Shown: piece by piece, positions 17,903 to 34,369 of the stretch
Layout: each line of letters opens with the position of its first letter
Position numbering within the stretch: position 1 is the stretch's first letter
Assembly: GCF_000800805.1 (NCBI RefSeq)
Contig: NZ_CP010070.1
Span: 434,001 to 498,000, forward strand
Reading direction: 5' to 3'
DNA from: Candidatus Methanoplasma termitum
Lineage (GTDB): Archaea > Thermoplasmatota > Thermoplasmata > Methanomassiliicoccales > Methanomethylophilaceae
DNA: 64,000 nt
Made by a program: the position numbers and the translations under genes
The notes under the pieces: model-generated
Told to the model about the DNA's origin: nothing
The model's input: only the letters and a program-made list of their open reading frames with translations
The model's database searches: none

Positions 17903-20900
17903 ATGAAAGGATTGAACAAGCTGTTGCCAATCTTGGCAATATCGATAATGTTGCTTGCTTCAGTACCGGTCGCACTTTTTGCCGGTAACTCGAACGCAGC
18001 AGCGGGGGGGGGGGAAGAGGAACATTGGGGACTGCCGTCAACTAATTATTTAGGCAGCCAGGCCCAAACATACAGTGATCAATCAGAATTTTCCGAACTA
18101 TACAAAAAGAACTTCGGCGGGGCCGGCACAGATGCATATTATTCGGTCGCCGGCACACCCGACGGCATAGTGGCCGTGGGGTATTCGGCCGCATTCGGAA
18201 GCGGTGACTGGAGCGGCACCGCCGGGAAAGGCGGCGTTGACGCAATAATTGTAAAACATGATAACTTCGGGAATGTGATATGGAAGAAGAACTTCGGCGG
18301 GGCCGGAGGCGATTATTTCCAATCGGTGGCGGTCGTTCAGGACGGGTTCGTTGCCGTGGGGTATTCGGACGAAACATCCTTCGGTAACGGGGATTGGATG
18401 GGGGTAGGGGGAAAAGGCGGTGCCGACGCGATCATCGTAAAATTCGACAACAACGGGAATGTGATATGGAAGAAGAACTTCGGAGGGAACAGCACAGATC
18501 AATATCTTTCGGTCGCTGCGGTATCCGGCGGGATAATCGCCGCTGGATACTCGAGCATATTCGGAAGCGGAGATTGGACAGGGGTCGCAAGCAAAGGCAG
18601 CAATGACGCGATCGCGGTAAAATATGACGATATCGGGAACGTGGTATGGAAGAAGAACCCCGGCGGGAACGGCGACGATCGATACAACTCCGTCGCAGCA
18701 ACATCGGACGGGTTCATCGCTGTTGGATACTCATCCGCATTCGGCAACGGGGATTGGATCGGAATGGCAAGCAAAGGCACCTATGATGCGATCATCGTGA
18801 AGTGCGACAACCTTGGTAACATAGTTTGGAAGAAGAGTTTCGGAGGGACAGGTGTGGATTATTTCTATTCCGTCGCAGCAACATCAGACGGATTCGTTGC
18901 GGCAGGGATCTCCGCCGCCTTCGGGAACGGCGATTGGACAGGCTGTGAAGGAAAAGGCGGTTATTATGATGCTATTGTCGTGAAATATGACAACTTTGGG
19001 AATACGGTGTGGAAGAACAACTTCGGGGGGACGGGAACAGATTATTTCCAAGCAGTTACCGCCGTCCAGGACGGGATCATCGCCGCGGGGTATTCGAACG
19101 TTTTCGGCGACGGCGATTGGATCGGCTTTGAAGGAAAAGGCGGTATTGATGCAACGGTCGTGAAGTATGACAATTCCGGAATCATAGTATGGAATAAGAA
19201 CATCGGGGGTTCCGGCACAGACATATGTTATTCGGTCGCCGCGGTGTCGGACGGAGTAGTCGCCGCAGGGTATTCTCAGACATTCGGCAACGGGGATTGG
19301 ACAGGCGTCGAGGGGAAGGGCAGTATTGATGCGTTCCTTGTGAAGTACGGTACGGCTCCGGACGTCATCCCCGTAACGGACATAATCGGTGCGCCCTCGG
19401 CCGCGACCGCAGAGGTGCCGCTAATACTAACGGGAACGGTCATCCCCTCGAACGCTACCGGCCAAGCAATAACATGGACGGTGAAGAACGCAGGGACCAC
19501 GGGCGCCGCAGTTGCCGGCAATAACATCCTCCTGACCACCGGTGCCGGCACCGTCGTCGTGACGGCGACGGTCGAGAACGGTCTGTCGCTTGGCACGAAT
19601 TTCACAAAAGATTTCACGATCGCGGTAACGGCGGTGGCCGGAGAAGGCATCACCTATGATGAATTGTACAAAAAGAACTTCGGAGGGTCCGGAGGGGACT
19701 ATTATCAGTCGGCAGCCGTTGTTACCGACGGGGTCATTGCAGTCGGGTATTCGGATGCGACATCCTTCGGTAACGGGGACTGGAGCGGCACCGTCGGTAA
19801 AGGCGGCGTAGATGCGATAATCGTAAAACATGACAACTTTGGGAATATAACATGGAAGAAGAACTTCGGAGGGTCCGGAGGCGACTATTTCAATTCCGTC
19901 GCTGCGGTATCCGACGGGTTCATCGCGGTTGGGTATTCTAACCCAGAATCATTCGGCAACGGCGACTGGACCGGTGTCACGGGGAACGGTGCCGCCGAGG
20001 CGATCATTGTTAAGTACGATAACGATGGGAACGTATTATGGAAAAAGAACTTCGGCGGGAACGGCACAGATCAGTACAATTCGGTTGCTGCGGTTCCGGA
20101 TGGGTTTGTCGCAGTTGGGCATTCTATGGGTTCCGGTAACGGGGACTGGGTAGGTATGACGGGGAAAGGAGGCGACGACGCGATAGTCGTGAAGTACGAC
20201 AACCTTGGGAACGTAATTTGGAAGAAGAACTTCGGAGGGTCGGGCACAGATTATTTTAATTCGGTCGCCGCTACATCTGACGGGTTCGCAGTAGCAGGAT
20301 ACTCGACAGCATTCGGTAGCGGAGATTGGGTCGGCATCACAGGAAAAGGCAGCTACGATGCGATCATAGTGAAGTACGACAGCAACGGGAACGTGCTGTG
20401 GAAGAATGCCCTCGGAGGATCCGGCGCAGATCAGTACAATTCGGTCGCCGCTGTACCGGATGGGTTCGTCGCTGTAGGGTATTCGGAAGCGGCGACCTTC
20501 GGCAGCGGAGACTGGATCGGCGTTCTATGTAAGGGAAGCACTGATGCGGTCATAGTGGAGTATGACAGCTTGGGGAACCCGGCATGGAAGAAGAACTTCG
20601 GAGGGTCGGGAGTCGATTACTTTTATTCGGTGGCCGCCGTCTCGGACGGGGTCGTCGCCGTTGGGTTCTCGAACGTTTTCGGCGACGCCGATCTGACCGG
20701 CATGACGGGCAAAGGTGCCTATGATGCAACGGTCGTTAAGTATGACGACCAGGGGAACATAACATGGAAGGACAGCCTCGGAGGATCCGGCCTGGATCGG
20801 TATAATTCTGTCGCTGCAGTGTCGGACGGGATCGTCGCCGCAGGTTATTCTCAAACATTCGGCAACGGGGATTGGACAGGTGTCGCAGGTAAAGGCAACA

Positions 20901-23900
20901 TCGACGCGATCCTTGTGAAATACAACATGATCATCGCCGAAACCAATAATGTCACCTCCATCGAGGTCACAGTTCCGGCAAGGACACAATACTTCATCGG
21001 AGAAACATTCGACCTCACAGGAATGGCCTTAACAGCGTTTTACAGCAATGGAACGAGTGCCGATGTGACCGACTATACAACATCCCCAGAGAACGGATCG
21101 ATATTCAGCACCGCCGGTACACGGACCGTTACCGTCACTTACACCGAGAACGGAATAACACAGACAACATCCTTTGATGTTACCATAGTACTTTGCGGAG
21201 ATGTCAACGGGGACGGGAATGTCGACACATTCGATCTGGGGATTTTGACAAGCTTTGTCGCAGGATTGCCAGGTTACACAGTAGATGAAAAAGCGGCAGA
21301 CGTCAACGCAGACGGAACGATCGACCAATTAGATGAATTGATATTGACACGTTTTATCGCAGGATGGCCGGGCTATTCGCTCCCTTACATGCTGCCTGTG
21401 ACCTTCAGCATAACATCGGTCTCCGACGCAGGTTCGACGATATCTCCGTCGGGAAGGACGGAGGTCGTTTACGGTGCAAACCGGACCTTTACATTCTCGG
21501 CAAACGAAGGATATCGGGTGTTTTCAATTACTGTGGATGATGTGCCGTTATCTCAGGCGATGATCGACCTCGGGACATACACCTTCGCCAATGTGGTGGG
21601 GGATCACACGATATCGGTTGTTACAACTGCGTATTACACTCACACTCTCACCTTCAATGCCAACGGCGGAGACGGGGTTCCGGCAATGATGATGCTGACG
21701 GACACCTCGACCGCATCTAACATGACGATACCTTCGACAGTGCCGACAAGAGCAGATCATATATTCTTGGGATGGACCACCGCTTTCAACGGGACCGGTA
21801 CCGTCTATCAGCCCGGAGAAACCGTCTCGGTCGGCGCCGCGGAGATCATTCTGTATGCAAAGTGGGCTATAATCACATACAGCCATACCATTAACTTCAA
21901 CGCAAACGGCGGTAACGGGGCTCCGGCATCTATGATATTGACGGACGCCTCGGCCGTTTCGAATTTGACGATACCTTTGACCGTGCCGGCAAGATCAGGT
22001 TATGCATTCTCCGGCTGGGCAACCGCTTCCAACGGAACAGGCACGATCTATCAGCCGGATGACAGGATATCGGTCGGCACCGCGGCGATCACTTTGTACG
22101 CAAAGTGGACCATTATTACTTATACCCACACACTTAACTTCAACGCAAACGGCGGTAACGGGGCTCCGGCCTCTATTGTATCGACGGACACCTCGGCCGT
22201 TTCGAATTTGACGATACCTTTGACAATGCCGATACGGACCGATTATGCGTTCTTAGGCTGGACAGTTACCGCAGACGGGACCGGCACGATATATCAGCCG
22301 GGCAGCGTGATAGCTGTGGGATCCGATGGTGTGACGCTGTACGCTTTCTGGGCGGCAACACCCCCCTATGTAAATAACACCTACAATGGGCCGACATTAA
22401 CGGGATCGAAGATATTCCCCAATCCGGACCGTATGAATGTATGGGGGGAATACATACAACAGGACACGTGGGTACTCACAACGGGACAGAAGCTCGACGG
22501 CTACATGAGTTACTATAATGTGGCCTCACACACCGCATACGGTACCCTTCCGCCGGGAGTGCGTGATGACCAGGGCCTCCCGGGTTATCAGGGGGTTCTG
22601 AACTTCACAGGTATACCCACGGCACCCGGGACGTATTTCCGTGAGTACGACATTCTGTTCACTGATGCAGCCAAAACGCCAGGATGTTACAATGTGCAGA
22701 TCACTTTCATTGTGCTGGACGGCAGTATAACGCATCCCCTGTACTTCAACGCCAACGGAGGAGAGGGGGTGCCGCCGACACAGATAATCAAAGATCTGAC
22801 GAAAACAACTGCGATGATCATACCTGATATTATACCGACCAGGACAGGCTACGGTTTCGCGGGGTGGACGACGATCGCGGCCGGGACGGGCACGATCTAT
22901 CAACCGGGCACCAGCATTAATGTCGGGACCGCACCTATCACACTGTACGCAAAATGGATGACATACACCCACACCCTAAACTACAACGCCAACGGCGGAA
23001 CGGGAGCGCCTGCTTCACAGATCATAACGGATACAACGGCGACAACATCACTGACCGTGCCGCTGACGATACCGTCAAGGACTAGTTATATGTTCCTCGG
23101 ATGGGCAACGACCGCCGCGGGCACGGGCACGGTCTATCAGCCCGGTGACGCAATACCCATCGGGACCGTGGCCGTCACGCTCTATGCAAAATGGTCGGCG
23201 GCTTATACCCATACGCTCATCTACGACGACAACGGCGGAACGGGAGCGCCTGCTTCACAGATCGTAACAGATATAACATCAACGTCATCGGTCGCAATAT
23301 CCGGCACAGTGCCGGCAAGGACCGGTTATGTATTCTCCGGATGGGCCACGACCGCCGCGGGATCGGGCACGAAATATATACCCGGAGATATGATATCCGT
23401 GGGAACGACAGCGGTCACTTTGTACGCATATTGGTCGGCTGCCGCGACCAGTTACACCCACACCCTCAGCTTCAACGCCATGGGTGGTACGGGAGCGCCT
23501 TCAGCGCAGACGGTAACGGACACCTATCAAACATCCAATGTCATGATACCGTCGGCCGTGCCGACAAGATCGGGTTACGCACTCTCCGGCTGGAACACGA
23601 ATTCCGCCGGAACAGGAACGAATTACCTTCCCGGTGCCTCGGTCAAGGTGGGGACATCTGCGGTCATACTATATGCCGTATGGGGAACGGCATACACCCA
23701 CACGCTTAACTTCAACGCCAACGGAGGAACGGGAGCGCCCGCTTCACAGATAATAACGGATGCGAACGTGACCTTGCCGATCACCATACCGTCCTCACTG
23801 CCCGCAAGAGCCGGTTATATATTCGCCGGCTGGAATACCAACTCCGCCGGAACTGGGACGAATTACCTTCCCGGAGACTCGGTCAGTGTGGTTAACGTTG

Positions 23901-26900
23901 CGGTAACACTGTACGCAAAGTGGACCTGGATCTATACACACACCCTCAGCTTCAACGCCAACGGAGGAACGGGTGCCCCGGCCGCACAGACGGCGCAGGA
24001 CATCAACGCAACCGCCGGGATACAGATACCTTTCGTAGCACCCGCAAGGGCAGGTTATATATTCGCCGGCTGGAACACCGCCGCGGACGGGAACGGCGCG
24101 ACCACCTATCAACCGGGCACCTTCGTATCCGTCGGAGCGGCAGCCGTCACGCTGTACGCTAAGTGGACAATGCCCGCTTATACACATACGATCAATTACA
24201 ACATCAACGGCGGGACGGGAGGACCCGCGGCGCAATCAGTAACGACAAAGAACACATCTGAGGTTATGATAATATCCAACATAATTCCTGTCAAAGCGGG
24301 ATATTACTTCAACGGCTGGGTTGTCAGCAGCGGAATGGGCCTGACATACCAACCAGGAAGTTCGATCAACGTGGGGACCTCTCCCATTACATTGAACGCC
24401 TTATGGGAATATGAACACACCCTCAGCTTCAATGCCAACGGCGGGACCGGAGCCCCGGCATCGATGACGATAGTGAACGTGAGCTCGACGGGAACGCATA
24501 CAATACCTCTCACAGTTCCATCAAGAGTGGGTTACATTTTTGCCGGCTGGACCGATAATGCGGCCGGAACAGGTACGGTATATCTTCCGGGAGCATCGAT
24601 AACCATCGGAACTCCCGGGCTCACGCTGTACGCAAAGTGGTCAACCACTCCTACCAATTACACCCATACGCTCAGCTTCAACGCCAACGGCGGAACCGGT
24701 GTCCCACAGACAATGACGATAACGAACACGTCGATAGTGACCGCATTCACAATACCCTCTACCGTTCCTACGAGAGACGGCTACAAATTCTATTGCTGGA
24801 ACAGCGAGGCAACAGGCTGGGGCACGGACTGCCAGCCCGGCGGCTCGATCAATGTCAGCACCGCTGCGCCGGTCACGCTGTACGCTCAGTGGAGTTATAT
24901 CCCCACAGTCACCCACACGCTTGAATTCGTCGCCAACGGCGGAACGGGCGCTCCTACGACGCAGACGTTGCAGGATAAAGCGGCATCATCGTTAATGGTG
25001 ATACCCAAAATAATACCGACAAAAACAGGCTATGAGTTCTTCGGTTGGACCACCACGCCCAACGGTAGTATATACTACCAACCGGGCGACTCGATCTTAG
25101 TAGGAACTGCGACGGTCACAATGTACGCAAAATGGAACATAAGCGTCCTAGCAATGGATATTTATGGGGTACCAGACTCAATGATAGTAGGCACACCCTT
25201 GATTCTAAACGGAACGGTGGTCCCTTCTACCGCAACGTACAAAACCATAACGTGGTCTGTGAAGAGTGCAGGAACAACTGGAGTCGAGATCAGTGGAAAT
25301 ACTCTCACGGCAACTGGAAGTGGAAAGGCAGTTGTAACAGCAACAATAGCAAACGTTCAAGGTAATATTTTCATGAAAGACTTTACAATAGAGGCATTCA
25401 CTCCAGTGGCTGGGGAATTTGATGGATTAATCAGAAAGAACTCCGACGCGTCCGGCGAAAATAATTATAATTCGGTTGCAGCAGTAGGTGACGGAGTAAT
25501 CGCTGTAGGTTCCTCCTCCTCGTTTGGCACCGGCATATGGGTGGGTGTTTCGGGTAAAGGCGGCACTGACGCAACGATAGTGAAGTATGACAAAGATGGC
25601 AATGTGATATGGAAGAATAATTTCGGCGGTTCGGGCGACGACAGTTTCAATGAAGTCATCGTAATGTCTGACGGCAGCATCATTGCTGTTGGTTATTCCA
25701 ACAAATTCGACAAAGACCTGTCCGGCATCACCGGAAAAGGCGGTAATGATGCGATCGTCGTAAAGTTTGATGGGAACGGTGTATGGAAGTGGACGAAGAA
25801 CTTCGGCGGGACAGGTGACGATTATTTCGATTCGGTAACTGCGACTTCCGACGGAGGCTTAATCGCTGTAGGGTGTTCGTTCATCACGAAAGCCTTTATG
25901 GCGGACACCAATTATGCGATCATTGTAAAGTACGGATACGGCGGCAACTCCGAATGGGACGACAAATATGAGGGTAAAGGCGGCGATGATAAGTATCAAT
26001 CAATCACTGACGTATCCGACGGTGTCATTGTGGCAGGATATACGGGGGCCTACAAACAAAGGCCCGGTGCGTTCACTTCTGTATACAAAGATGCGCTCGT
26101 TGTAAAGTACAGCTATGGCGGCGGTAAAGAATGGGAAAAGACATATGAGGGGTCCGTTGGAGATGCCGAATTCCATTCAGTAACGGCAATACAGGGTGGC
26201 TTAGGCTTCGTTGCCGTGGGATACACAGAGATTTCTAAACAAATCCCAGGCAATACTCTGAAGATAGTAAGAGATGCGCTCTTGGTCAGATACGATAGCA
26301 GCGGCAATATTAATTGGGAAAAGAGATATGGGGGGACTGCCGGCGACACAGAATTCCATTCTGTTGTGGCAATACCTGGTGCAGGCTTCGTTGTCGCAGG
26401 GCATACAGTGAGTTCCGAACAAAACCCCGTCGGTCTTCTAACAGTATGCAATTATGCGTTAATCGTCAGATATGATGATGTCGGCTATATCCTATGGGAG
26501 AAGAGACTGGAAGCGTCCGGCGGTAATAGGTATCTCTCGGTAGCGGAAGCGGACGGCAACTATTTCGCAGTGGGGTACACACAAGGCCATAGATTAACCC
26601 CTCCTGGTTTTACTGAATATTATAGAGATGCTGTGATTGTGAAGTATGGCATAATGGGAATTACAAACATAACCGAGGTTCCTTTAACGGCAATTGCAGG
26701 GATGGCGCTTACTTTGACAGGAACAATATCTCCAATTAATGCCACAAATAAGTCGATCACGTGGACGGTTGAGCCAATAGGAACTACTGCTACAGGAGCG
26801 ACGATAGGCGGCAATACGCTTTCAACAACAGGGGCAGGCATCGTAAAAGTGAAAGCGACAGTAGCGGATGGCACCAAAAAAGGTGTCAATTACACTCAGA

Positions 26901-27604
26901 CATTTACCATTGAAGTAAAAAATATACCTTCTGACTATAAAATTATAATACACTATCAAACGGTGGAGGATAATTTCAAATATAGCGATCTTACAGATTC
27001 TATGGTTGGGGTACTCGGTGGAAGTAATGTTGGAATCGACCTATCTCCGGCAGGTTGGTTTGTATTCGGGGCCTGGGTGGACGGAAAGGAACTGACCAAA
27101 GCAGAGATAAAAGAAGGATATTATTTGATTAAAAATGTTACAAAGAACTACAACGTGACTATAACCTACGCACCAAAAGGTGGGATAAGCGGTAAAGAGG
27201 ATCTCGGAGGCACTTTAACAAATTACTATTTCAAAGAATCAGATAGGATTGGGATTTTAATTTTGACAATTGAAATGGGAGTACCATATGGGAGTGTGGT
27301 CGGACTTCTCTTTGAAGGGATTAATGCGGATGACGCAGCGGGTGTCGCTATAGATATTGCTGATAAAATAATCGATAGCGAAAAAGTTCAAGATGCTATA
27401 AAGAAAGCAGGTTATGTAATACCTCTGATAGGGCAGATATGGTTCGTTGTTGACACGGTATTGACAGTTGAATGCTTGGCTATGGCGATTTGTATGTTTA
27501 CAGAGTTAAATGTTTTCCTTAATCACGATGCTTCAAAGGGGGTGATGTTGACAATCGATGACTGGGTGTTGGCGTTCAGGTATTACGGTGTACAATCACA
27601 ATAA
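17903..27604 (+). CDS. giant modular surface protein: three beta-propellers, dockerin, 13 InlB repeats
   Basis: 3233 residues. Signal peptide 1-33 (LLASVPVALFAGNSNA), then Gly/Glu linker over a G11 tract. Propeller one at 71-482 (seven blades); a BIG2-like Ig domain to about 580; propeller two at 593-1008 (seven blades); a Big_3-like Ig domain about 1016-1096; a dockerin type I pair at 1097-1162 (GDVNGDGNVDTFDL and ADVNADGTIDQLDE); a TISPSG module; thirteen InlB B-repeats about 1244-2411, split after the third by a putative Ig domain (1488-1606); BIG2-like domain; propeller three at 2513-2916; BIG2-like domain; a unique C-terminus (3010-3233) with two hydrophobic stretches. It lacks the WFFLFYRRYYD anchor. 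Likely an extracellular adhesin or matrix protein. Base composition becomes A-richer after about 25130. Confidence 0.85.
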   Translation: MKGLNKLLPILAISIMLLASVPVALFAGNSNAAAGGGEEEHWGLPSTNYLGSQAQTYSDQSEFSELYKKNFGGAGTDAYYSVAGTPDGIVAVGYSAAFGSGDWSGTAGKGGVDAIIVKHDNFGNVIWKKNFGGAGGDYFQSVAVVQDGFVAVGYSDETSFGNGDWMGVGGKGGADAIIVKFDNNGNVIWKKNFGGNSTDQYLSVAAVSGGIIAAGYSSIFGSGDWTGVASKGSNDAIAVKYDDIGNVVWKKNPGGNGDDRYNSVAATSDGFIAVGYSSAFGNGDWIGMASKGTYDAIIVKCDNLGNIVWKKSFGGTGVDYFYSVAATSDGFVAAGISAAFGNGDWTGCEGKGGYYDAIVVKYDNFGNTVWKNNFGGTGTDYFQAVTAVQDGIIAAGYSNVFGDGDWIGFEGKGGIDATVVKYDNSGIIVWNKNIGGSGTDICYSVAAVSDGVVAAGYSQTFGNGDWTGVEGKGSIDAFLVKYGTAPDVIPVTDIIGAPSAATAEVPLILTGTVIPSNATGQAITWTVKNAGTTGAAVAGNNILLTTGAGTVVVTATVENGLSLGTNFTKDFTIAVTAVAGEGITYDELYKKNFGGSGGDYYQSAAVVTDGVIAVGYSDATSFGNGDWSGTVGKGGVDAIIVKHDNFGNITWKKNFGGSGGDYFNSVAAVSDGFIAVGYSNPESFGNGDWTGVTGNGAAEAIIVKYDNDGNVLWKKNFGGNGTDQYNSVAAVPDGFVAVGHSMGSGNGDWVGMTGKGGDDAIVVKYDNLGNVIWKKNFGGSGTDYFNSVAATSDGFAVAGYSTAFGSGDWVGITGKGSYDAIIVKYDSNGNVLWKNALGGSGADQYNSVAAVPDGFVAVGYSEAATFGSGDWIGVLCKGSTDAVIVEYDSLGNPAWKKNFGGSGVDYFYSVAAVSDGVVAVGFSNVFGDADLTGMTGKGAYDATVVKYDDQGNITWKDSLGGSGLDRYNSVAAVSDGIVAAGYSQTFGNGDWTGVAGKGNIDAILVKYNMIIAETNNVTSIEVTVPARTQYFIGETFDLTGMALTAFYSNGTSADVTDYTTSPENGSIFSTAGTRTVTVTYTENGITQTTSFDVTIVLCGDVNGDGNVDTFDLGILTSFVAGLPGYTVDEKAADVNADGTIDQLDELILTRFIAGWPGYSLPYMLPVTFSITSVSDAGSTISPSGRTEVVYGANRTFTFSANEGYRVFSITVDDVPLSQAMIDLGTYTFANVVGDHTISVVTTAYYTHTLTFNANGGDGVPAMMMLTDTSTASNMTIPSTVPTRADHIFLGWTTAFNGTGTVYQPGETVSVGAAEIILYAKWAIITYSHTINFNANGGNGAPASMILTDASAVSNLTIPLTVPARSGYAFSGWATASNGTGTIYQPDDRISVGTAAITLYAKWTIITYTHTLNFNANGGNGAPASIVSTDTSAVSNLTIPLTMPIRTDYAFLGWTVTADGTGTIYQPGSVIAVGSDGVTLYAFWAATPPYVNNTYNGPTLTGSKIFPNPDRMNVWGEYIQQDTWVLTTGQKLDGYMSYYNVASHTAYGTLPPGVRDDQGLPGYQGVLNFTGIPTAPGTYFREYDILFTDAAKTPGCYNVQITFIVLDGSITHPLYFNANGGEGVPPTQIIKDLTKTTAMIIPDIIPTRTGYGFAGWTTIAAGTGTIYQPGTSINVGTAPITLYAKWMTYTHTLNYNANGGTGAPASQIITDTTATTSLTVPLTIPSRTSYMFLGWATTAAGTGTVYQPGDAIPIGTVAVTLYAKWSAAYTHTLIYDDNGGTGAPASQIVTDITSTSSVAISGTVPARTGYVFSGWATTAAGSGTKYIPGDMISVGTTAVTLYAYWSAAATSYTHTLSFNAMGGTGAPSAQTVTDTYQTSNVMIPSAVPTRSGYALSGWNTNSAGTGTNYLPGASVKVGTSAVILYAVWGTAYTHTLNFNANGGTGAPASQIITDANVTLPITIPSSLPARAGYIFAGWNTNSAGTGTNYLPGDSVSVVNVAVTLYAKWTWIYTHTLSFNANGGTGAPAAQTAQDINATAGIQIPFVAPARAGYIFAGWNTAADGNGATTYQPGTFVSVGAAAVTLYAKWTMPAYTHTINYNINGGTGGPAAQSVTTKNTSEVMIISNIIPVKAGYYFNGWVVSSGMGLTYQPGSSINVGTSPITLNALWEYEHTLSFNANGGTGAPASMTIVNVSSTGTHTIPLTVPSRVGYIFAGWTDNAAGTGTVYLPGASITIGTPGLTLYAKWSTTPTNYTHTLSFNANGGTGVPQTMTITNTSIVTAFTIPSTVPTRDGYKFYCWNSEATGWGTDCQPGGSINVSTAAPVTLYAQWSYIPTVTHTLEFVANGGTGAPTTQTLQDKAASSLMVIPKIIPTKTGYEFFGWTTTPNGSIYYQPGDSILVGTATVTMYAKWNISVLAMDIYGVPDSMIVGTPLILNGTVVPSTATYKTITWSVKSAGTTGVEISGNTLTATGSGKAVVTATIANVQGNIFMKDFTIEAFTPVAGEFDGLIRKNSDASGENNYNSVAAVGDGVIAVGSSSSFGTGIWVGVSGKGGTDATIVKYDKDGNVIWKNNFGGSGDDSFNEVIVMSDGSIIAVGYSNKFDKDLSGITGKGGNDAIVVKFDGNGVWKWTKNFGGTGDDYFDSVTATSDGGLIAVGCSFITKAFMADTNYAIIVKYGYGGNSEWDDKYEGKGGDDKYQSITDVSDGVIVAGYTGAYKQRPGAFTSVYKDALVVKYSYGGGKEWEKTYEGSVGDAEFHSVTAIQGGLGFVAVGYTEISKQIPGNTLKIVRDALLVRYDSSGNINWEKRYGGTAGDTEFHSVVAIPGAGFVVAGHTVSSEQNPVGLLTVCNYALIVRYDDVGYILWEKRLEASGGNRYLSVAEADGNYFAVGYTQGHRLTPPGFTEYYRDAVIVKYGIMGITNITEVPLTAIAGMALTLTGTISPINATNKSITWTVEPIGTTATGATIGGNTLSTTGAGIVKVKATVADGTKKGVNYTQTFTIEVKNIPSDYKIIIHYQTVEDNFKYSDLTDSMVGVLGGSNVGIDLSPAGWFVFGAWVDGKELTKAEIKEGYYLIKNVTKNYNVTITYAPKGGISGKEDLGGTLTNYYFKESDRIGILILTIEMGVPYGSVVGLLFEGINADDAAGVAIDIADKIIDSEKVQDAIKKAGYVIPLIGQIWFVVDTVLTVECLAMAICMFTELNVFLNHDASKGVMLTIDDWVLAFRYYGVQSQ
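18004..18014 (+). repeat. G11 homopolymer in the coding sequence just after the signal peptide
   Basis: Eleven consecutive G in codons 34-38 (GCG GGG GGG GGG GAA). Loss or gain of one base shifts the frame right after the signal peptide and would abolish the 3233-residue protein. Confidence 0.9.
18113..19350 (+). repeat. propeller block 1, seven blades
   Basis: Seven tandem units of about 58-62 codons with consensus FGG.GTD.F.SVAA..DG.IAVGYS..FGNGDW.G..GKG..DAIIVKYD..GNV.WKKN. Seven units equal one closed beta-propeller. Confidence 0.85.
19679..20926 (+). repeat. propeller block 2, seven blades
   Basis: Seven more copies of the same unit, very close to block 1 at DNA level, after a BIG2-like spacer domain. 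Confidence 0.85.
21190..21390 (+). other. dockerin-like segment within the giant protein
   Basis: Two calcium-loop repeats, GDVNGDGNVDTFDLGIL and ADVNADGTIDQLDELIL, spaced as in type I dockerins, each followed by a helix ending FVAGLPGY or FIAGWPGY. It is internal, not C-terminal. Confidence 0.7.
21632..25137 (+). repeat. thirteen InlB B-repeats (Listeria-Bacteroides repeat)
   Basis: Units of about 80 codons with consensus YTHTL.FNANGGTGAP...GY.FAGW.T...GTGT.YQPG..I.VGT..VTLYAKW. A 120-codon putative Ig domain (22364-22722) separates units three and four. Neighbouring units are near-identical in parts at DNA level. Confidence 0.85.
25439..26650 (+). repeat. propeller block 3, seven divergent blades
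   Basis: Seven units again, but units 3-7 differ from blocks 1 and 2 (YEG/YGG in place of FGG, longer loops, EWEK or NWEK strands). Block 3 was probably added from another source or diverged long ago. Confidence 0.75.
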
Positions 27605-27641: not shown

Positions 27642-28501
27642 TTCGCAGGCGGAAAGGTCGTGAATGACCTGGGGGCTGCTGAATACTGCGTCATGATGGA
27701 ATCATCCACATACTCGTACCGGGTCTACTGGTTCTTCGAATCCATGGGAGTAGAAGCGCATGTTGTCCATACGCGGAGTCTGAAGATGATCACAGAATCC
27801 ACCAAGAAGACTGACAGGAACTACGCGGAAGCGATTGGGATCATGCTGAGGCTCTGGAAGAAAGGCGGGATACCGGATATTTACATCTCCTCCATACCGA
27901 CCCAGGAACAGGTGGAACTGAAAGACATATACAGGTACTGCGAGGAGCTGTTCTGCCGAATAGGGGAACTTCTCAGCGGCGAGATCGAGAGAGTACATCA
28001 GGGCCCGGTGGCCGAGAGTGTTACGCAGCAGCTGAGAATCGGAGAATCCCACAGGCTGCTGACCGAATACAAAGGGGCGGTGAGGACATAGAGTCCAGAA
28101 TGCCGGGTGACTTGAATGTGGGTCTTCTGATGAGCATAACGGGGATTGGGAGATGGACAGCCGTTCAGATAACGTCCACGATTATCGATGTCGGTAGATT
28201 CAAGGATGCTGAAAAGATGTGTGCATACTTCGGGATGGTCCCAAAAGTCGGGGACTCTGGCAGGAAAGTACATTATGAGAGGATGATCAAGACCGGCGAC
28301 AAGATAATGAGACCGATAATGGGAATGGTGACCCTCTCTCACATCCAGCACTGCGACTCATCGGTCACGGCATACTACCGCCGAAAAGAGAAGGAGATGG
28401 GAAAGAAGAAAGTGCTCATAACAGCGTCCAGGAAGATGCTGGCAGTGATATTCGCCGTACTCAGGGACCAATCAGTTCAAGGCATGAGCCTCCTCTCGTG
28501 A
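27642..28501 (+). pseudogene. IS110 family transposase remnant
   Basis: Two frames of one IS110 transposase. The first (GGKVVNDLGAAEYC to KGAVRT, ending TAG at 28091) has the DEDD-domain part with TRSLKMITESTKKTDRNYAE. The second starts upstream of 28100 (EDIESRMPGD) and has the C-terminal transposase_20 part with SITGIGRWTA and the serine region GDSGRKVHYERMIK. One missing base near 28080 breaks the frame. The first 60 or so residues with the first catalytic Asp are absent, so the element is dead and truncated right behind the giant surface gene. Confidence 0.8.
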
Positions 28502-29592: not shown

Positions 29593-29671
29593 GACGTTAT
29601 GTACCGATTCAGTCATGTTGTCGTATTTGGTTGGTGTTAAACCTGAGTTCGACACCTGATTCTTTTTAAGG

Positions 29672-31225
29672 CTGTATCAGAAGCGATGCTGGCGCAAGGT
29701 AGAAGTGTCCCGGACCGGATGTTTGTTCATGACCACAAAACCTCTTCTGCCCGGGACGTGTTCCATAGAGCCGAATGATAATAAATCCCTGCCTATCGGG
29801 ACGATAACGGCAGTGAGAGAGTTCCTTGGTAAATTGGGATTGGACGAATACTTCGACGGGATCAAGAGCGGAGGATCGCCGTTATCTCCGCTGGTGTCTG
29901 CTCTTATCTCTTATCGACTGACAGAGAATTTCTCGATACAGGGTTGCGGAAGATGGCTGTCTTCGCAGGAAGTGAGAAAGGAGCTCGGGATAAGGGCGGA
30001 AGTAAGCGGCAGGATGCTCAACCGAGCGGTGGAGAGAGTGGGAGAGAACATGGAGAATGCGCTGGTACGCCTTCGGGATTCGCTGTTCTCGCTGTACGAT
30101 CTTGAGCATACGGATGTGAACGCCGATACCACATCCGTCGCGTTGTATTCGAAGCGGACCGATATATTCGAATTCGGTTATTCGAGAGATAAACGTCCCG
30201 ATCTCAGGCAGGTGAACATCGGCGTTGCCGAGCTGAGGGATCCGATCAACATACCTTTCCATTTGACGGTGGAGAAAGGCAACACCGCCGATCCGGTCAC
30301 GTTCCTGAGACTTGTGGATGACATAATGAACGAACTCAGGGACGGTTCGATGTTCGTGTTCGATGCCGGAGGCGACTCCAAGAACATCACCGATGCGATA
30401 GCGGGGAAGGGCATGAGGTATATCACGCGAAAGAAGCTCGACACGTCAGATGACGAATGGATATCGAAGTTCCGGAAGGAGAACGTCTGTTACAAGGATG
30501 ATGACGGCGCAGTGTACAGTCAGACCAGAACCTTCGAGTCCTCCGGAAGAACTACGTACCTGTTCTTCTCGGAGAAGCTGTACAAAGATAAAATGAACAT
30601 ATTGGACGGCATGGCGCAGAGGTGCGTGGAAGATGCCAAGGACGTCATCAAGAGAAAGAAGGACGGAACGTTGAGGATATCGAGGACGGTGATCAAACGT
30701 CTCCGGAACCCTCTGATATCGCTGAACGTGGGGATCCAAAGCAAACCCCTCGGTTCCGACGAAGATAGTTTTCATTATGTGCGGGAGCATCTGAGCAACG
30801 GCAGAGAGGGATTTTTTAAGCTCGAATGCAGCGAGAAAATGACATCTGCCGATGTTTTGAAGATATACCGCAGAAGAGATTCCGTCTAGAAACTAATAGA
30901 GTCCCTGAAGAACCAAATCGATATCAGACCGCTGAGGGTATTGTCCGAGAACTCCGTCAAAGGCATCCTTTTCATAGGTTTCCCGGCTCAGGCGATCGTT
31001 TCCATGATAAGGTACGAAGTACCCGAATTGAGGACGAGATCGACGAAATTCATCATCGCGTCCCTTCAAAATTTGACAGTAACGTACATCTATGACAAAA
31101 AGAACATCCTCAGGCGCATATTCTCCAACTTCGAACCGATCAACTCGCTCATTCTTAGGGAAATACTGATCAAAACCGACGGTTCCGGGGGCTGAAAGCC
31201 CATCGGAACCCTTCTTCGGACAGTG
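29672..31225 (+). mobile_element. IS1634-like (IS4 superfamily) insertion sequence
   Basis: One DDE transposase gene flanked by short imperfect inverted ends: CTGTATCAGAAG at about 29672-29684 and its relative CTTCTTCGGACAG at about 31213-31225. The ends are only a guess since no direct target repeat is obvious. Confidence 0.45.
29705..31195 (+). pseudogene. IS1634 family transposase with in-frame TAG at the catalytic Glu
   Basis: A DDE transposase of IS4/IS1634 type. VNADTTSVALY carries the first Asp and MFVFDAGGDSKNI the second. The frame meets TAG at 30887-30889 and then stays open for 101 more codons to TGA at 31193. The read-through sequence is IYRRRDSV-stop-KLIESLK, an exact fit to the Y(2)R(3)E(6)K signature with the stop in the position of the catalytic Glu; GAG to TAG is one base. 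Conserved sequence continues (NQIDIRPLRVLSENSVKG). Start may be GTG 29705 or ATG 29729. In a pyrrolysine-decoding cell the full protein would be made, but with pyrrolysine at the active site; otherwise it is truncated. Confidence 0.8.
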
Positions 31226-31621
31226 CAAAAGCACCCGTCTGCGGCCTTTGTCTCAGCGTAAGCTCAACTGCCAAATTTCCTAGAAAACAAGATCATCTGT
31301 CGAGGTCAGGGTGTAAATGTAAATATATCATTTCAGAGATATGACGTTCAGATCCCATGAGAGAAGAGAAAAAGATCAAGATGATGGCATGGTTCATGGT
31401 AGGAATAATGGTTCTTGTTGTGGTAGTAGTAGCAGCGCTATGGCTCGCACAGAACCTATTTAAATAATTAAGCTAATTGCTTAATTACATTAATTTATTA
31501 TGCTTTACCATATTCAATAATTACATTGTGTGTTAATGCTTTATTAGTTAATGTAATAGCTTAATAACATTAACTATTATTGAGTAGTGAAATGGCAACC
31601 ATTTTTGGCCATAGTTTCAGA
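31196..31621. other. intergenic region with a small ORF and AT-rich palindromes
   Basis: After the IS1634 end this stretch carries the 36-codon membrane ORF at 31357-31467 and two AT palindromes: AATTAAGC-TAATT-GCTTAATT (31466-31486) and TAGTTAATGT-N12-ACATTAACTA (31545-31576). Confidence 0.5.
31357..31467 (+). CDS. small single-helix membrane protein (36 residues)
   Basis: MREEKKIKMMAW opens a charged N-terminus followed by one strongly hydrophobic helix (VGIMVLVVVVVAALWLA) and a short NLFK end. AAATATATC at about 31321-31329 is a TATA box about 30 bases before the ATG, which fits leaderless transcription. Codon choice looks normal. It is not recognised as any family; a regulator or membrane-complex subunit is possible. 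Confidence 0.45.
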   Translation: MREEKKIKMMAWFMVGIMVLVVVVVAALWLAQNLFK

Positions 31622-33126: not shown

Positions 33127-34233
33127 TCAGTCCTCTTCGGCATCCTCCGTTTCTCTTGCACGCTTCAGCAGTTCGGGGTCGACTGTGTAAGGTGCGTTTT
33201 TCTTCAACACCGACCATATCACGGTCAGCAGCTTCCTCGATGCTGCGGTCAGCGCCTCGTTCTTCACTTTACCTCTCTTCACCAGTCGGCGATACATCTC
33301 TGTGACCACCGAATCCTCGACATTCTGGATATGCGAGAACGCACAGCGCTTAAGCATTACCCTTGCTACCTCGTCCCCTCTGTGGGTGGTCGGACAGTCA
33401 GGACTGTGGTCGGCCGAGTCCCTCTTTCCCGGCACAACACCGAATGACGCGGTGAATTGCGTGACCTTGCCGAATCTTCCGATGTCCACGATCAGGGACG
33501 TCAGATACGCTGCGGGCACAATCCCTACTCCGGGGATGGAAAGGATCAATTCATACATGCGGTTCCCGGAGAACATCTGGGCTATCGCCTTCTCAACGAA
33601 CCTTACTCTGGATTTGGCATCCAAGGCGAACTTTATCTGCATCAGCAGATAAGGGTCCTTGTGCTCCTGCATCTCCCGAACGGCCTTGACGGACAGAATG
33701 TCATCGTATTCCTTTGACAAACTGATGCCGTGGAGAAGCAGGTGCGCTCTGATCCTCTGCCTGGCCTCTTTGAGATATATCCTTTCGTTGTACACTCCTC
33801 TGCACATCTCCCGCTTGGTCATCCATTCCGGAGAAGGGATGAAGCAAGCGGCGAACTCATTCTCGCCGTTCAGCCTTCTCCTCATATATGCCGCCAGTTC
33901 GATGGAATCATTGCGGTCTGTCTTCTTCACCGATCTCGTTATCCGGTACAGGTCCACCGCCTGAGCAACGGTCACGTTCATACCTAGGCCCTTCAGCATC
34001 CAGTATATCTCGTGAGATTTCGTCGAATTCTCTATCAGGACATGGCATTCGTGCTTCGAAAGGAACGCCGCCATCTTCTTCATTCCATCTCCGTCGGCAG
34101 GGAATTTCCAGAACTCTTTATTGAATGAATCCAGGAACTTCTCGTGCCTTTCCCGTGTTTCCCCCATGCCCGCATAAACGGCATAGGCGGAACAGAACTT
34201 TGCATGGACATCCATGCCAATCGCTGTTTTCAT
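33127..34233 (-). CDS. IS110 family transposase (DEDD recombinase)
   Basis: A 368-residue transposase starting at ATG 34233 (MKTAIGMDVHAK) after GGGAG. The RuvC-like DEDD residues are visible: Asp8, Glu68 in LIENSTKS, Asp106 and Asp109 in KKTDRNDSIELA. The C-terminal transposase_20 domain starts SIPGVGIVPAAYL, and the catalytic serine region is FGVVPGKRDSADHS. The usual Ser-Gly-Lys is changed to Ser-Ala-Asp, so activity is uncertain, but the gene is uninterrupted. It is only distantly related to the remnant at 27642. IS110 enzymes act with a bridge RNA from the element end. Confidence 0.88.
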   Translation of the reverse strand: MKTAIGMDVHAKFCSAYAVYAGMGETRERHEKFLDSFNKEFWKFPADGDGMKKMAAFLSKHECHVLIENSTKSHEIYWMLKGLGMNVTVAQAVDLYRITRSVKKTDRNDSIELAAYMRRRLNGENEFAACFIPSPEWMTKREMCRGVYNERIYLKEARQRIRAHLLLHGISLSKEYDDILSVKAVREMQEHKDPYLLMQIKFALDAKSRVRFVEKAIAQMFSGNRMYELILSIPGVGIVPAAYLTSLIVDIGRFGKVTQFTASFGVVPGKRDSADHSPDCPTTHRGDEVARVMLKRCAFSHIQNVEDSVVTEMYRRLVKRGKVKNEALTAASRKLLTVIWSVLKKNAPYTVDPELLKRARETEDAEED

Positions 34234-34369
34234 ATTCTTTTTCTCCCGCTGACAAGAGAAAGAGCACTGTCTAAAGAAGGGGTTTTTATCCTGCCCAGCC
34301 CATATGATCCATGACCTGTGCTCTTTGTCGTTGTAAGCAAACACAGAGGCGCAGGCCACAATTTATGTC

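Follow-up and report, generated by a model that had tools for sequence, protein, structure and literature searches.

An in-frame amber codon at the catalytic glutamate position of a single-copy IS1634-family transposase in Candidatus Methanoplasma termitum

In this study, the window, a stretch of 64,000 nucleotides from Candidatus Methanoplasma termitum (contig NZ_CP010070.1, positions 434,001 to 498,000), was found to harbor an insertion sequence of the IS1634 family with one transposase frame, whose features are collected in Table 1. The IS1634 family was formerly known as IS1549 and was split off from the IS4 family. The element is 1669 bp long with the ends CCTGAGTT / CCTGACCT, and its 13-bp inverted repeats, CCTGAgtTCGACA / CCTGAccTCGACA, are alike at 11 of 13 bases by eye; this agrees with the size of 1500-2000 bp and the terminal pattern C-----YT published for the family (PMC2266710, in the available part of that survey). 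The ends could be fixed only by comparison with related copies, because the two ends, when only they were aligned locally, scored 27, which is not above shuffled sequences (mean 20.9, maximum 40). The element thus resembles its family in the single-ORF transposase, the length, the C-----YT ends and the Y...E......K signature, but differs from it in carrying TAG for the catalytic glutamate and in lacking an exact target duplication of 5-6 bp. Neither this kind of duplication nor the long variable repeats also described for the family were detected at the mapped ends, and no repeats of at least 9 bases were found within 600 bases on either side; a target duplication can be lost with age. The neighborhood holds other mobile DNA, as an IS110-family remnant (window 28100-28501) and a full-length IS110 transposase (33127-34359) flank the element. 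Further upstream, a giant surface protein seems to be encoded by a single ORF of 3233 aa (17903-27604), whose start is signal-like and whose product contains many repeated modules.

Table 1. Coordinates of the IS1634-family element and of its transposase within the window.
Feature	Position	Strand	Basis or remark
IS1634-family insertion sequence, 1669 bp	29642..31310	+	ends drawn at the limits of similarity to copies from two related genomes
Left terminal inverted repeat CCTGAGTTCGACA	29642..29654	+	4/4 aligned left ends agree, with a single deviating position in one of them
Right terminal inverted repeat CCTGACCTCGACA (minus-strand reading)	31298..31310	-	right end aligned in 7 sequences, mostly conserved
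IS1634-family transposase frame, 496 aa with TAG read through, 394 aa if terminated	29705..31195	+	
First catalytic Asp (D141, GAT), present	30125..30127	+	homologue columns; model strand 138-148
Second catalytic Asp (D220, GAT), present	30362..30364	+	homologue columns; directly after model strand 216-219
Y(2)R(3)x(6)K signature, Y388 to K402	30866..30910	+	
TAG in place of catalytic Glu (residue 395)	30887..30889	+	codon alignment, homologue columns; helix 392-403 of model

The transposase ORF offers a GTG start at 29705 and an ATG at 29729, and remains open past the TAG until the stop at 31193-31195. The read-through protein reached 166.1 bits with the IS1634 model NCBIfam NF033559 (cut-off 100), which bears out the family named in the original prediction, and 24.5 bits with Pfam DDE_Tnp_1 (cut-off 23). 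Its DDE triad is incomplete: D141 and D220 are present, and Glu 395 is TAG. The protein is otherwise well preserved: 43 columns reach a conservation of at least 85% in 27 full-length homologues, and it agrees with all of these except for the TAG and N246D. A ColabFold model was built on an alignment of 32 sequences and reached a mean pLDDT of 81.7; its first core strand carries D141, and its helix 392-403 carries residue 395. The triad geometry is suggested by these residue positions in the model rather than by a residue-by-residue superposition. A profile sequence search against solved structures gave nothing useful; a fold search gave matches, the best being Tn5 transposase with a Z of 23 over 340 residues. 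The Tn5 (IS50) transposase and its inhibitor accordingly have a fold in common with the window transposase over these 340 aligned residues, at a sequence identity of about 11%. Judged on sequence, the element is a derelict member of the IS1634 family by descent and not a working one.

The original prediction placed an in-frame TAG exactly at the glutamate of Y(2)R(3)E(6)K, and this was confirmed, since Y388, R391, TAG395 and K402 of the read-through translation are spaced just as in the motif and glutamate occupies the position in 43 of the 43 other distinct contexts. The column counts were drawn from the loci of the best matches in a search of 147 genomes of the order Methanomassiliicoccales, 41 of which had matches, together with 20 selected stretches and further loci; duplicates were counted once, and only stretches that cover the glutamate column were used. 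Across the 44 distinct contexts obtained, the codon was GAG in 36, GAA in seven and TAG only in the window transposase, and all 26 other full-length homologues have glutamate at column 395. A TAG at this column as a family trait of IS1634 was therefore ruled out (0 of 43 other distinct sites), and conservation of the in-frame TAG, by which pyrrolysine proteins are judged, was seen at 0 of the 43 homologous sites. Known as region C1 in IS4-type transposases, the motif supplies the glutamate of the IS4-family DDE triad, and its arginine is listed for only 5 of 32 IS1634-family transposases (PMC2266710, in the portion consulted); in the window transposase this arginine is present (R391). The claim that a single base change had occurred is likewise probable, as GAG is the commonest codon at the site and is also found in most close relatives. 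A single base change could turn any of 85 other codons of the frame into TAG, and a random amber mutation would hit the glutamate codon about once in 86 times by arithmetic on these one-step codons. Such a chance strike on the catalytic codon is mildly surprising, and carries modest weight after the scanning of many interrupted elements. The literature searched yielded no description of an amber codon at the catalytic glutamate, which may still be published elsewhere.

What becomes of this codon depends on the host. The window lies inside a single contig of 1,488,669 bases with a genome completeness of 99.96%, and the genome of strain MpT1 is reported as complete, with 1.49 Mb and 49% G+C (PMC5011839, in the part available). 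Matches above the curated cut-offs were obtained for pylS, pylB, pylC and pylD (TIGR02367, TIGR03910, TIGR03909 and TIGR03911, respectively). Directly upstream of pylS, a tRNA-like stretch with a CTA anticodon was recognized by eye (L081:5107-5038, minus strand); ARAGORN made no pylT call there, and its predicted minimum-energy fold is not a clean cloverleaf (z -0.80). Two mtmB genes have one TAG each. In a 264-kb sample made up of the window plus ten stretches of 20 kb, TAG terminates only 4 of the 174 ORFs of at least 150 aa (2.3%), one of which is the window transposase itself, and it makes up 3213 of the 18255 stop triplets in the same 264 kb. TAG-ended genes are given as 1.6% in Ca. M. 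alvus and about 4-5% in Methanosarcina, and a low share of TAG stops is taken there as a sign of efficient pyrrolysine decoding (PMC4153887, in the passages available). With the four pyl genes, the pylT-like stretch, the TAG codons in both mtmB genes and the rarity of TAG as terminator, the host very probably reads UAG as pyrrolysine, a point that the original prediction had left as a condition. No PYLIS-like element was found downstream of the transposase TAG, and this element is described as not essential (PMC2933860, in the section seen). A PYLIS_1 match that begins at the TAG of one mtmB gene (L081:11326-11428, minus strand) is weak, with 31.7 bits where the gathering score is 70.

It is established for the DDE class that activity is lost when the glutamate is missing. 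In all likelihood, we are dealing with a single-copy IS1634 element that lost its activity when an amber codon replaced the catalytic glutamate and that was then fixed by drift, and the inactivation would be recent because the frame is open everywhere else. The ancestral codon would have been GAG. If the transposase gene is transcribed, the ribosome would mostly insert pyrrolysine at UAG 395, giving as the main product a full-length protein with a long lysine derivative where the metal-binding third carboxylate is needed, presumably able neither to cut nor to join DNA. The share of translation that stops would leave a 394-residue fragment devoid of the glutamate and of the C-terminal helices. 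The read-through and terminated products should both be inactive because neither has the catalytic glutamate. That the enzyme is disarmed either way, as originally proposed, follows from the TAG at the column of a glutamate that belongs to the DDE triad and is called 'essential' there (PMC2266710, in the available part). The observation is real and was correctly read; as an instance of a presumably dead mobile element, it is probably ordinary and accidental.

A check for other copies of the element in the genome had been suggested; no second copy exists, hence none that is active with TAG, and other active copies were thereby ruled out. The only other IS1634-family match (G000:C1:1170718-1172130) encodes 479 aa in an intact frame, and has Tyr (TAT) at the first catalytic aspartate (L066:1345-1347, minus strand), a position with 42 Asp, this one Tyr and one Asn among the 44 distinct contexts. 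This second element also adjoins an IS110-like transposase (L002:3192-4325, by eye). Both IS1634 transposases of the genome are thus deprived of one catalytic acid, with little else changed. Among the 27 full-length frames, four depart at a catalytic column (TAG, Asp to Tyr, D220G and D220E), and that both elements of this genome should be among the four has a P of about 0.017 under random placement, a figure calculated after the fact. This fits a genome with a dying IS1634 family in which each last copy was stopped by one change. Survivorship may be the cause of two singly damaged copies, because copies that move leave more copies and frankly broken ones soon decay beyond recognition. The catalytic loss in the second element makes pure drift slightly less comfortable. 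The single copy, the missing exact target duplication and the decayed copies in related genomes together suggest an old family on its way out; the copies of Ca. Methanoplasma glyptotermitis are 59-70% identical and several are broken by stops or split. A search of a plasmid collection gave only three distant matches to the transposase. Short stretches matching only the right end of the element (L052, L053 and L054 of genome G057) could be MITE-like relics. The genome also has four IS5-type copies with open frames, and the two whose translations were inspected keep D, D and E, these residues being located by eye from the IS5 motifs.

Amber codons in insertion sequences of pyrrolysine-using methanogens are already published. 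Transposases of Methanosarcina with a conserved amber codon have long been known (PMC2933860, in the section available; PMC1914089; PMC3639795), and for ISO4-H5 in-frame amber codons are reported in 46 genes, including 10 insertion sequence elements (PMC5011839, in the part consulted). The amber-bearing elements of M. acetivorans, M. mazei and ISO4-H5 resemble ours in having an in-frame TAG in an insertion sequence transposase of a pyrrolysine-decoding methanogen (PMC2933860, PMC5011839 and PMC3639795, in the portions available). By contrast, in Methanosarcina several copies share the TAG, whose place within the protein the available texts leave unstated there and for ISO4-H5, whereas the TAG of the window element is private to a single copy and falls on a catalytic residue.

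These published cases, the Methanosarcina transposases (PMC2933860) and the ten elements of ISO4-H5 (PMC5011839) in the parts available, lend some color to a regulatory switch, where the supply of pyrrolysine would set the ratio of truncated to full-length product and the full-length form would be active, and five other full-length IS1634 frames of the order have one TAG each (L021, L024, L031, L056 and L057). Yet these five TAG codons fall in columns that vary or do not align and that could accommodate pyrrolysine, the window TAG is conserved in no relative, and pyrrolysine should not support catalysis at a site with glutamate in 26 of the 26 other full-length homologues; we regard a switch as extremely improbable. 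Hardly to be expected, too, is that a near-cognate tRNA inserts Glu or Gln at the UAG and yields some active enzyme, for though this is compatible with the sequence, the dedicated UAG-decoding system of the host should outcompete near-cognate tRNAs. A sequencing or assembly error, with a true base that restores a glutamate codon and an intact element, has more to be said for it, seeing that the TAG rests on a single base, that no second copy or strain offers a comparison, and that every relative has glutamate at column 395. It is unlikely all the same: the single-contig genome is 99.96% complete and its mtmB frames have the expected TAG, no other errors are apparent in the transposase frame, and the catalytic residue lost in the other IS1634 match would require a second error.

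The Tn5 inhibitor protein, which represses Tn5, offers a model for yet another reading, that the dead full-length pyrrolysine protein was retained as an inhibitor which binds the element's ends or enters mixed complexes and represses related IS1634 elements. The otherwise conserved frame speaks for this, as does the fact that both IS1634 transposases of the genome are full-length and each is without exactly one catalytic acid; structure 1b7e, 'Transposase inhibitor', was also among the fold matches, through the shared Tn5 fold only. Against it, no active IS1634 copy remains in the genome to be repressed, only one genome has the change, the closest relatives, at about 54-70% identity, are too distant for selection to be computed, and the Tn5 inhibitor is without its N-terminus, not without a catalytic residue. 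We consider this reading quite improbable. That both dead full-length transposases act in trans as inhibitors which silence or keep out incoming IS1634 elements is very improbable; such selection for dead but DNA-binding transposases is a bolder reading than survivorship and has no positive support. If true, it would mean an immunity made from dead transposases, of which one would rely on the 22nd amino acid.

On the preferred reading, accidental inactivation of a single-copy element, the case matters because, where the host decodes UAG as pyrrolysine, an amber mutation may be only leaky and not lethal to the gene it strikes, so that mobile elements could stay active with a TAG, and only an amber at a residue of irreplaceable chemistry would kill outright; the window element would be a clean natural example, its last copy killed by one active-site change where an amber elsewhere might not kill. 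Residue 395 also provides a simple testable site for what the host puts at an unselected UAG. As to the frequency of such codons, 7 of the 27 distinct full-length IS1634 frames have one internal stop, namely six TAG, one TGA and no TAA. The one-step codons of the window ORF number 85 for TAG, 49 for TAA and 37 for TGA, by which about half of the stops would be expected to be TAG, and at least six TAG among seven stops has a P of about 0.06 by arithmetic; the TAG excess among otherwise intact IS1634 frames of the order is therefore suggestive and not significant. In a wider search of 389 genomes, in which at most three candidates were scored in most genomes, the matches listed hold too few interrupted full-length frames to decide on such an excess, and they include one TAG frame outside the order (G160).
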